NCBI RefSeq assembly: GCF_000337135.1
Contig: NZ_AOIN01000044.1
Coordinates: forward strand, 84,014 to 137,809
DNA from: Natrialba chahannaoensis JCM 10990
Lineage (GTDB): Archaea > Halobacteriota > Halobacteria > Halobacteriales > Natrialbaceae
Reading direction: 5' to 3'
Length of the DNA: 53,796 bases
Positions 38,446-52,299 of this stretch are shown here, piece after piece; within the stretch, counting starts at the first letter, position 1, and each line of letters begins with the position of its first letter. A model generated the notes under the pieces. The model was given only the letters and a program-made list of their open reading frames with translations, made no database searches and had not been told where the DNA came from. The translations under genes were made by a program, and so were the position numbers.

Positions 38446-39438
38446 ATGAACGATCACGAAAATTACGAAGCACTCGAGACGCCGGTTGCTGACGTTGGGG
38501 CGGTAGCCGCTATTGGTGACTCGCCGCTGGTTGAACTCCCCACCATCTCGCCGGACGACGGGGCAACGATTTACGCCAAGTGGGAGGGTGGCAACCCGAC
38601 CGGAAGCATCAAGGATCGAATGGCGCTCGCCATGATTCGAGCGGCACGTGAGCGAGGCGACCTCGAACCTGGTGAGCCAGTGATCGAGTTCACGGGCGGC
38701 AGCACGGGTTCGAGTCTCGCGTTCGTCTGTTCGGTACTCGATCACCCGTTCCAGGTCGTCACCGCCGACTGCGTCGCCGACGAGAAGATTGCATCGATGC
38801 GGGCTCTCGGTGCCGATGTCGAGGTCGTCGAAACACCGGACGGTGTCGCGTACGACGGCCTCTTCGATGACCTTCGGCAGGAAACCGAACGCATCGCCGA
38901 TGAAACGGGCGCATACTTCACCAATCAGTTCGAAAATCCAGACCAACTCGACGGCTATCGCGCACTTGGTGCGGAGATTCTCGCCCAGCAACCCGATATC
39001 GACGAGTTCGTGATGATCGTCGGGACTGGTGGCTGTGCGATGGGCACTGCGAAAGCGCTGCGCGAGGAGAAACCCGACCTCGATATCGGAGTGGTCGAGC
39101 CCGCCGAATCACCCGTTCTCACCGAGGGGACTACGGGTGAACACAGCGTGCAGGGGACTGCAATCGTCGCGTCTCCGCCATTGGTTGATGACGACCTCTA
39201 CGATCGTATCTACACGATTCCGAACGACGACGGCATCGAAACGGTACAGAAGATTGCCAGTGAGGAAGGGTTACTCGTCGGCACCAGTACGGGGATGAAC
39301 GTCGCTGCTGCTCGCCGCACTGCCGAGATGTGCGATCCCGACGATGTGATCGTCACCATCGCCTGTGATACCGGGCTCAAATATCTCTCTGACGGACTGT
39401 ACGAGGGACTTGAAGGGTCGACGTTCTGTCTCTGCTAG
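38446..39438 (+). CDS. PLP-dependent cysteine synthase-family enzyme
   Basis: The 330-aa protein has a fold-type II PLP fold. The Schiff-base Lys lies in NPTGSIKDRMALAM near 59, the substrate loop EFTGGSTGSSLA near 83 and the PLP-phosphate loop VGTGGCAMGT near 193. It catalyses beta-replacement on O-acetylserine, O-phosphoserine or serine to give cysteine, or a related reaction. Compared with CysK, the loop TGNTG is replaced by TGGSTGS and the C-terminus ends in Cys-Leu-Cys. The group includes serine/threonine-type and cystathionine beta-synthase relatives. A strong TATA box suggests independent expression. Confidence 0.85.
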   Translation: MNDHENYEALETPVADVGAVAAIGDSPLVELPTISPDDGATIYAKWEGGNPTGSIKDRMALAMIRAARERGDLEPGEPVIEFTGGSTGSSLAFVCSVLDHPFQVVTADCVADEKIASMRALGADVEVVETPDGVAYDGLFDDLRQETERIADETGAYFTNQFENPDQLDGYRALGAEILAQQPDIDEFVMIVGTGGCAMGTAKALREEKPDLDIGVVEPAESPVLTEGTTGEHSVQGTAIVASPPLVDDDLYDRIYTIPNDDGIETVQKIASEEGLLVGTSTGMNVAAARRTAEMCDPDDVIVTIACDTGLKYLSDGLYEGLEGSTFCLC

Positions 39439-39708
39439 CGTTTCCGTGGCGACTGGATCAGGAGTCAGTTCACAGTACGGTACGGGCCAGCTCTACAGAC
39501 GGTCTGTGACGCTGGCTGAACGCCAGTCCTCCACGCCGACACTCGCAGTGACCGCCGCTTGACACCGAAATAGACTGTACTACGTCCTGTCTGACAGTGC
39601 CGTCGCACAGTGACAGTGCGTCGGTGAACTGGTTCGCACGGCGTACTCGAGTACGGACTCCCGATTCCGGATCGTCGTCACGAAAAATGAGCTGTACTTG
39701 GGTGGCGG

Positions 39709-39945
39709 TTACCGGCAGGGGCCACACCAGTCACAAAGGACGGGGTCACAGTTGTCGCAGGTACACAGGTCGTCCTCGCTCAGGTCGTCAACGGTTGCGT
39801 CGCCGAACACGAGGTACGTTTCGCCGTCGATTTTGACCCGGCGGACCTCCGGTTCGTCGTTCCGTGCGGCGGCACTTCCCGCACCGATTGTGGCGACCCC
39901 CAGTCCTGCTGCGCTGGCTCGTTTGAGGATGGTTCGTCGTTCCAT
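39709..39945 (-). CDS. Small exported Cys-rich peptide with Tat-type signal
   Basis: The 78-aa product begins MERRTILKRASAAGLGVATI, a twin-arginine signal with a following Ala/Gly core and AAAR cleavage region near residue 28. The mature part is short and acidic, ending in a six-cysteine module (C at about 61, 63, 66, 71, 74 and 77, CTCDNC to CGPC). ATG 39945 is preferred because GGAG at 39952-39955 lies 6 bp upstream; ATG 39951 touches the SD. The layout recalls haloarchaeal Cys-rich secreted peptides such as halocin C8, but a metal-binding or redox role is equally possible. Confidence 0.75.
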   Translation of the reverse strand: MERRTILKRASAAGLGVATIGAGSAAARNDEPEVRRVKIDGETYLVFGDATVDDLSEDDLCTCDNCDPVLCDWCGPCR

Positions 39946-39951
39946 TGACAT

Positions 39952-39955
39952 CTCC
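39952..39955 (-). promoter_or_regulatory. Shine-Dalgarno GGAG fixing the peptide start
   Basis: On the minus strand ataggag ends six bases before ATG 39945. Most genes here show no SD, so this one is unusual and decides between two ATGs six bases apart. Confidence 0.6.
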
Positions 39956-40110
39956 TATGGTTATTTCCGACTAGTACATAATAGTTTCCCAACAATAACC
40001 GATTCGAACGGACCGTTGGCACACCTGTTCGGTGGGACGAGTTCAAAATGAGCGGGTCGTAGTCGAGAACGGAAGGGTGGTGCCAGCCACCGAATAGGCG
40101 TCTCGACAAC

Positions 40111-51257: not shown

Positions 51258-51636
51258 ATCCCGACCGTTCGTAATGCGGGTTAAAGTGGATTGCTATCTC
51301 GCTCATTTTTCCTTCGATTACGAATACCTGAACGATATTCGACTGTTTGTGCAGGATTGTGAACATTGCTAATATAGCAACAACTGCAACTAGTTACACA
51401 CTGATCGCACGTCCGCGGTTCTCACTCGTTCTACTCGCTCCGAACCGTGCTGCCGTCGTGCGATCAGGTGTGCAGTGACTTGCAGCGGCTACTATAGTGT
51501 GTGCCACCAGCAGGAATCCTCACGCTACCAACACCGCTGTGGGACTGACACCACCAACGCCACCCGACAGACACCACCGACGAGAGACGTCAGCCGTCCC
51601 GAACGGCTCTTTACGCTCCTCGCTCTAACAGTCTCC
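51258..51636. other. 379-bp intergenic region holding a palindrome
   Basis: No reading frame here is supported. The central part is a long imperfect palindrome, listed separately. A ctcgctcatttttcc run lies near 51297-51311. Confidence 0.5.
51376..51495. repeat. About 120-bp imperfect palindrome (MITE-like)
   Basis: The arms ctgatcgcacg (51401-51411) and cgtgcgatcag (51457-51467) pair perfectly. The complementarity continues imperfectly outwards to ctgcaa (51383-51388) and ttgcag (51480-51485) and to TA-rich flanks. An inner stem cggttc/gaaccg (51416-51421/51442-51447) adds a second level. The form resembles the palindrome at 43.85 kb, although the sequence differs. Confidence 0.65.
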
Positions 51637-52299
51637 ATGAAGCTCCGCCAGAACGCGCGCCATTTCGCATCGCGAACGGCACTCGAGACACCGGTTGTTC
51701 GATCGGTCGCCAAATCGGGGCTCGTCAAACTCCACACTCGCGTCTTTTTGAAGAAGGCAGCCCCCGAACACGCCGACGAGCGCGAGGCTCACCTTGACGA
51801 CCTCTTTGAGGCGACCGTTGACACGTACCTGCGGGCGCTCAACGACGGCTACTCCGAGGCTGAAGCCCGGGAGATTACGCACATCCAGGCCAACTTCGAC
51901 TTCTACAACCATGGCTGGACCGAGATGATGGAGTTCCCGACGGACGAACTCGAAGCCCACTACGACCGCTACCGGGAGTTCTTCGAGCGCTGGGATATCA
52001 CGATCGACGAACCACTCGGACAGTTCAAACCGCCAGAAGGGCTGACCGAGGCTCCCTCGACACCGGAAAAGCTCGAGAATCCGGAGCATCCACACGCCGA
52101 GGGTGGCTTCGCGGATGATGTCTACGTCGAAACGGAGTCTGGCGAACTCGTCGTTGGCGGCCAGGAGGAACCGGAAAATGTCGATGTTTCACAGGCAGTC
52201 GGCGTGAGTGGTGAGACGGCCACTGACGCCAATGGTAGTGGCGGTGACGGCAGCAGTAGCGAGGCGTTCGGATCCAGCGGTAACGGGAGCCGCGACTAA
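51637..52299 (+). CDS. DUF6149-like haloarchaeal protein
   Basis: The 220-aa protein begins MKLRQNARHFASRTALETPV. It contains DGYSEAEAREITHIQANFDF and YNHGWTEMMEFPTDEL, a conserved block that matches haloarchaeal DUF6149 proteins. The second half (about 135-220) is Gly/Ser/Glu-rich and probably disordered. No function is known. ATG 51637 is preferred over a frame reaching 51475, because the preceding residues are Thr/Arg/Pro-rich and not conserved. Confidence 0.8.
   Translation: MKLRQNARHFASRTALETPVVRSVAKSGLVKLHTRVFLKKAAPEHADEREAHLDDLFEATVDTYLRALNDGYSEAEAREITHIQANFDFYNHGWTEMMEFPTDELEAHYDRYREFFERWDITIDEPLGQFKPPEGLTEAPSTPEKLENPEHPHAEGGFADDVYVETESGELVVGGQEEPENVDVSQAVGVSGETATDANGSGGDGSSSEAFGSSGNGSRD

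Follow-up and report, generated by a model that had tools for sequence, protein, structure and literature searches.

The 53,796-nucleotide (nt) window analysed here, that is, the whole stretch of Natrialba chahannaoensis JCM 10990 DNA within which coordinates are counted, carries on its minus strand, downstream of uvrA, a very short gene for a peptide with a twin-arginine leader and a six-cysteine C-terminal end. A first-pass annotation had described, without stating the strand, a frame of 78 amino acids (aa) with a twin-arginine signal, a mature part of about 50 residues and a C-terminal CxCxxC...CxxCxxC pattern; the frame has 78 codons, leader motif and cysteine pattern read in the sequence as described, and a cut after residue 27 would leave 51 aa. 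The coding region comprises the following features:

39709-39945, minus strand: coding sequence, 78 aa plus stop, MERRTILKRASAAGLGVATIGAGSAAARNDEPEVRRVKIDGETYLVFGDATVDDLSEDDLCTCDNCDPVLCDWCGPCR; orthologues show third-position-biased variation.
39865-39945, minus strand: twin-arginine leader, residues 1-27 (RRTILKR, a hydrophobic run, SAAA), as read from the sequence.
39805-39846, minus strand: residues 34-47, VRRVKIDGETYLVF, weakly predicted as a beta hairpin (single-sequence AlphaFold2; predicted local distance difference test score, pLDDT, about 63 here).
39715-39765, minus strand: six-cysteine module, residues 61-77, CxCx2Cx4Cx2Cx2C; the six cysteines are identical in 4/4 orthologues.

The start ATG lies at 39945 and the stop at 39709-39711. 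An in-frame ATG at 39951, two codons upstream, would give 80 aa, and the 78-aa start is preferred because the upstream ATG is GTG in three orthologues and directly abuts an AGGAG. Read by eye, the leader has its arginine pair at residues 3-4, followed by a hydrophobic stretch and SAAA (an AxA site), and the lack of a lipobox cysteine together with this leader points to export as a soluble protein by the twin-arginine translocation (Tat) route. The predicted mature part of 51 aa would have a mass of 5.8 kDa, an isoelectric point of 4.05 and a charge of about -9; the middle of the peptide is acidic, and its C-terminal end is CTCDNCDPVLCDWCGPCR. The cysteine tail contains one Thr and zero Ser, and a single C-x-x-C-G (CDWCG, residues 71-75), the segment CTCDNCD being without the G. 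The single-sequence AlphaFold2 model has a mean pLDDT of 51.8, too weak for a fold search, and no fold is claimed.

Orthologues that are 94-97% identical occur in four of the seven Natrialba genomes of the genus set (E <= 1.2e-48): the window's genome, N. hulunbeirensis JCM 10989 (G003), N. magadii (G004) and Natrialba sp. SSL1 (G005). The first-pass annotation had proposed a search for homologues that keep the cysteines, and all six are invariant among these four. Of 21 variable sites, 3, 1 and 17 fall on the first, second and third codon positions, respectively; 15 codons vary synonymously only, five alter a residue, all before residue 39, and the six pairs give nonsynonymous rates (dN) of 0.006-0.035 versus synonymous rates (dS) of 0.13-0.22. 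On this pattern of change the 78-codon frame is a true gene under purifying selection, and the earlier view that it is really translated is borne out by its conservation and third-position bias.

The distribution of the peptide is narrow. Its own genome holds a single match of the true kind, and across 392 genomes of the order only the same four Natrialba match at E about 1e-54, the next best (E 8.2e-7) lying within a 503-aa frame; among the matches listed outside the orthologues, many cover the N-terminal part inside longer frames. A pattern scan of an 84,980-species collection, from which close records were possibly omitted, gave two matches, N. hulunbeirensis and SSL1, and a mature-only protein search returned nothing under E 0.02 beyond the four orthologues. 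Used as a DNA pattern, the cysteine module matched 69 of 125 family genomes and its reversed control matched more often; among the matches listed, peptides of this kind were recognised only in the four orthologues, many of the remaining matches being CTG-type repeats and only a few of them having been conceptually translated. An 8-row model of the whole peptide matched 121/125 family genomes, mostly in leader regions among the matches listed, and 18 further places scanned held no second short peptide of this kind, one of them encoding a 184-aa protein with four tail cysteines. The viral contigs and phages searched contained no relative, and the plasmids searched gave only residues 1-31 at E 0.5, within an annotated gamma-glutamyltransferase.

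Searches against described families were likewise without result: Pfam gave 0 families for the peptide, NCBIfam none at cut-off (the sole match, of the leader end to TIGR01412 at E 0.12, is far below it), and none of the local PDB sequence matches was significant. Judged by sequence, the peptide thus fits no described family among those searched, and the literature searched describes no such peptide in titles or abstract openings. A protease-precursor paper (mBio 2026, PMC12893001) was set aside; it concerns a precursor protein, and its main text does not mention cysteine. Residues 41-57, GETYLVFGDATVDDLSE (39775-39825), resemble a segment of eukaryotic NAC alpha, SDTYIVFGEAKIEDLSQ, a likeness that was dropped as not significant (E 0.22).

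The flanks of the gene contain the following features:

39999-40011, minus strand: imperfect inverted repeat (palindrome) CCGTTCGAATCGG, upstream of the TATA-like box; a related sequence is present in all four carriers.
39976-39983, minus strand: TATA-like TATTATGT, 31-38 nt before the ATG, aligned in all four; putative promoter element.
39952-39956, minus strand: AGGAG, Shine-Dalgarno-like, in the window's genome only.
39680-39691, minus strand: T-run CTCATTTTTCGT after the stop, aligned in all four; putative terminator.

All four carriers have TATTATRT or CATTATGT at the aligned TATA-like position, and one of the four has CCC instead of CTC in the T-run. At the spacing usual for archaeal promoters, the predicted transcript start would lie roughly 8 nt before the ATG, so that the transcript may be nearly leaderless. 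The first-pass annotation had taken the Shine-Dalgarno sequence as support for translation; the motif is present in the window, but at its place the three orthologues have GGTGGTG, CAGTGGTG and GTTGGTG, and this argument therefore adds little. At up to 2 mismatches, the palindrome pattern shows no excess in the window (23 matches vs 28.0 expected).

The four carriers share a common gene order of uvrA (named via NCBIfam), the peptide gene, a gene whose 134-aa product matches no family, and a gene for a Sortilin/BNR-type protein. These last two genes come after uvrA in the three non-carrier genomes as well (G001, G002 and G006), where the 134-aa gene lies within about 100-180 bp after uvrA and a peptide gene was not found. 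In the final 540 nt of uvrA, the four carriers group together (92-93% identity) and so do the three non-carriers (96%), with 81-86% between the groups; this agrees with a single gain or loss between the two Natrialba groups. Natrialba spans species of neutral and alkaline environments, N. asiatica being non-alkaliphilic (available part of PMC3403918), and, judging from N. magadii, the peptide-bearing group may be the alkaliphilic one. A PALP-family enzyme gene (38446-39438), convergent with the peptide gene, separates it from the 134-aa gene in the window and in N. magadii only, that is, at this place in 2/7 Natrialba genomes; its product is not taken as an obligate partner because it is present at only two of the four peptide loci. 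The PALP-family protein ends in FCLC. Among the neighbours scanned we recognised no immunity or transporter gene, as the first-pass annotation had also noted, and no metal transporter or regulator.

Peptides built on the same plan occur elsewhere among the haloarchaea. A search of the group around genome G177, prompted by two weak order-level matches there (E 4.7e-4 and 0.0029), used a mature-only model of three rows, two of them from G184, and matched 14 places (E <= 7.2e-5) in nine of the 28 family f17 genomes (G184, G248, G225, G238, G275, G191, G228, G279 and G177), four of these places lying within 2.8 kb in G225. These sequences apparently form a separate, undescribed multi-copy family of Tat-leader, cysteine-tailed peptides in g45; its loci, together with that of G131, a genome of another family, are L166, L243-L250 and L281. 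At 9/9 g45 loci, chosen for holding matches so that this view covers the matched genomes, at least one peptide lies between genes of MaoC type and for an acyl-CoA carboxyltransferase, with a DUF5658-type gene also between them; a DoxX/MauE-like gene lies in that interval at 3/9, and L166, L246, L248 and L249 have a further 85-aa type outside it, beyond the MaoC gene. Two copies adjoin the carboxyltransferase gene in G131, where a partial match to MaoC lies about 7 kb off.

The g45 and G131 peptides have a twin-arginine leader, a short acidic region in which a V-x-x-DG motif is frequent, and a C-terminal cysteine tail; two of the short ones searched gave 0 Pfam families, and five gave no NCBIfam match or matches below cut-off. 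One cysteine-tailed member of a g45 cluster (L243:8398-8697, minus strand) has a frame without ATG and twin-arginine leader, and the stops upstream of it suggest that this copy has decayed or been frameshifted. Longer Tat-leader proteins of 172-195 aa with tail cysteines, possibly halocin-like, are encoded at L146:1471-2058 (plus strand), L148:1138-1656 (minus), L153:1051-1632 (minus) and L207:1396-1950 (plus); those of L146 and L153 share a CYYE-DCTNYAC-type motif, and that of L207 has only four tail cysteines.

Homology between these peptides and that of Natrialba was examined, and the profiles do not support it. Pairwise shuffling gave hints, with P 0.0032 for the whole mature part against L143, P 0.0028 likewise against L166:6386 and, as the best of 12 tests on six peptides, P 0.0014 for the pre-cysteine part of L166:6386, the other nine tests giving P 0.058 or more. 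Profiles scored the peptide no better than its own shuffles: the g45 family profile gave 3748 of 20000 shuffles, and also 324 of 9744 background frames, a score as high or higher, with the pre-cysteine profile 2262 of the 19646 shuffles scored (20000 made) scored as high, and a 22-row model with the Natrialba row in it, scoring 13 candidates per genome, missed the peptides of Natrialba at E 0.003. Because the profile scores do not rise above those of shuffles, plan and family membership are kept apart: by sequence, the Natrialba peptide shares the g45 plan, and homology of the mature parts is not claimed.

Within this plan the number of cysteines is even in 28/28 peptides (24/24 hand-listed and 4/4 later additions), a hand-chosen set that includes some near-identical sequences and one, G225_c, whose frame lacks a leader. 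Counts run from 8 to 16, and 14/14 clusters at 50% identity among the 24 are even; as a control, 26/45 other genes of the same loci with 6-16 cysteines have an even number. The count leaves out arginine-rich, non-acidic frames, L244:15716-16003 and window 51625-51945 (5 Cys each), L208:1352-1537 (6 Cys) and the longer L146, L148, L153 and L207 proteins. Some counts, for example 10 and 14, cannot be divided into fours, which suits disulfide pairing better than four-cysteine metal sites.

Taken together, we put it at even chances that the peptide is a Tat-exported, disulfide-locked microprotein effective outside the cell. A single-copy gene of one Natrialba group, transcribed from its own promoter downstream of uvrA, would encode the exported precursor; its leader would be cut near residue 27, and the freed product, acidic and about 51 residues long, may have a beta-hairpin arm and would end in the six-cysteine tail. 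Outside the cell these cysteines would pair into three disulfides, making the peptide compact and stable, and it would act as an extracellular effector, either in the medium or on the surface of the cell. In favour are the purifying selection, the invariant cysteines and their even number, the leader without a lipobox, the single true match in its own genome, the conserved TATA-like box and T-run, and a search of that genome for LANC_like proteins that gave no match. An antimicrobial or signalling role, as the first-pass annotation also had it, is possible; of the single actions, antagonism of neighbouring cells is tentatively put first, followed by a self-directed signal or a role at the surface.

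Several points weigh against this view. The same-plan peptides lack demonstrated homology, so that cysteine parity applies to the Natrialba peptide by analogy, and a mechanical scan that kept every acidic twin-arginine-leader frame with at least five tail cysteines found 30/32 distinct tails even and two odd; the odd ones, L244:15716-16003 and window 51625-51945, which have Val-codon starts in the scan, are taken for chance frames. The peptide is conserved about like UvrA (94-97% vs about 97%), and this, with the lack of a recognisable immunity gene among the neighbours, argues against a rapidly evolving toxin. Confidence in the fold model is low, and secretion is read from the leader motif. 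Lastly, the CxCxxC and CxxCxxC spacings suit metal binding too. This last point, with the acidic arm and the restriction of the gene to the group containing the alkaliphile N. magadii, agrees with a secreted or surface metal-thiolate peptide whose six cysteines would coordinate zinc, copper or iron, serving to scavenge or buffer metal in alkaline brine, in which metals are scarce. Thiols, however, oxidise outside the cell at high pH, and neither a metal transporter or regulator among the neighbours scanned nor a match to a metal-binding family was recognised; we consider this explanation doubtful.

An antimicrobial of halocin C8 type, with a precursor bearing its own immunity part, would account for the Tat-type leader and the cysteine-rich end, and the available part of PMC11509114 reports microhalocins of less than 10 kDa and calls them not cationic; 78 aa in total, however, leave no space for immunity, the cysteines number six, and no Pfam or NCBIfam family was found at cut-off, so that we regard it as unlikely. 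Still less probable is a thiol-redox peptide acting through the thioredoxin-like motif DWCGPCR. Local PDB matches to thioredoxins centre on WCGPC (E 0.25 and weaker), and one weak genome match sits in a frame with ADWCGPCQ, but the thioredoxin matches are not significant and cover the motif region only, there is no confident fold model, the remaining cysteines are equally invariant, and the thioredoxin fold is larger than the roughly 51 residues of the mature part. That the frame is open by chance, as its shortness and want of a known family might suggest, is barely credible, because place and third-position bias are conserved in four species.

We would tentatively extend the disulfide-locked effector to a wider picture, in which haloarchaea hold an undescribed repertoire, differing lineage by lineage, of tiny Tat-exported, disulfide-locked peptides of defensin-like plan that serve as antagonists or signals. 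It is possible, with similar caution, that this repertoire takes the form of a single-copy, kept peptide in N. magadii and its kin and of a diversifying, clustered family at the MaoC/carboxyltransferase hotspot elsewhere. Few secreted archaeal peptides are known at the sequence level; N. magadii, a cultured species, carries a short, group-restricted and strictly conserved export peptide, and the multi-copy family found in parallel provides a comparative set with varied cysteine tails.

Among the closest known systems, halocin C8 resembles the peptide in style. Its cysteine-rich end has ten cysteines and its mature form 76 aa, as against six cysteines and about 51 aa here, so that the two are set apart by description. 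According to the available part of PMC11509114, halocin C8 is likewise a small haloarchaeal peptide with a Tat-type precursor, the leader in Natrialba being recognised by motif, but its precursor ProC8, of 283 aa, is matured into an immunity peptide and the 76-aa halocin; the kinship suggested by the first-pass annotation thus holds for style and fails on architecture, the Natrialba peptide having 78 aa and no immunity part. The C(P)XCG zinc-finger micro-proteins of Haloferax volcanii, as far as the available parts of PMC11241148 and PMC10716476 describe them, are similarly very small, haloarchaeal and provided with CxxC pairs, whereas the Natrialba peptide has one C-x-x-C-G, together with a CxCxxC and a leader for export. 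Archaeal class II lanthipeptides (available part of PMC10105419) also have small precursors with cysteines in the C-terminal part, but they accompany LanM and need Ser/Thr; a search for LANC_like (PF05147) at E <= 0.01 gave 0/1 genomes, in the window's genome (96.76% complete), and this route was dropped for want of a match there. There is also a likeness in plan to the g45 and G131 cysteine-tailed peptides, with which the Natrialba peptide shares the twin-arginine leader, the acidic region and an even-numbered cysteine tail, and from which it differs as a single copy beside uvrA rather than a member of a multi-copy hotspot.
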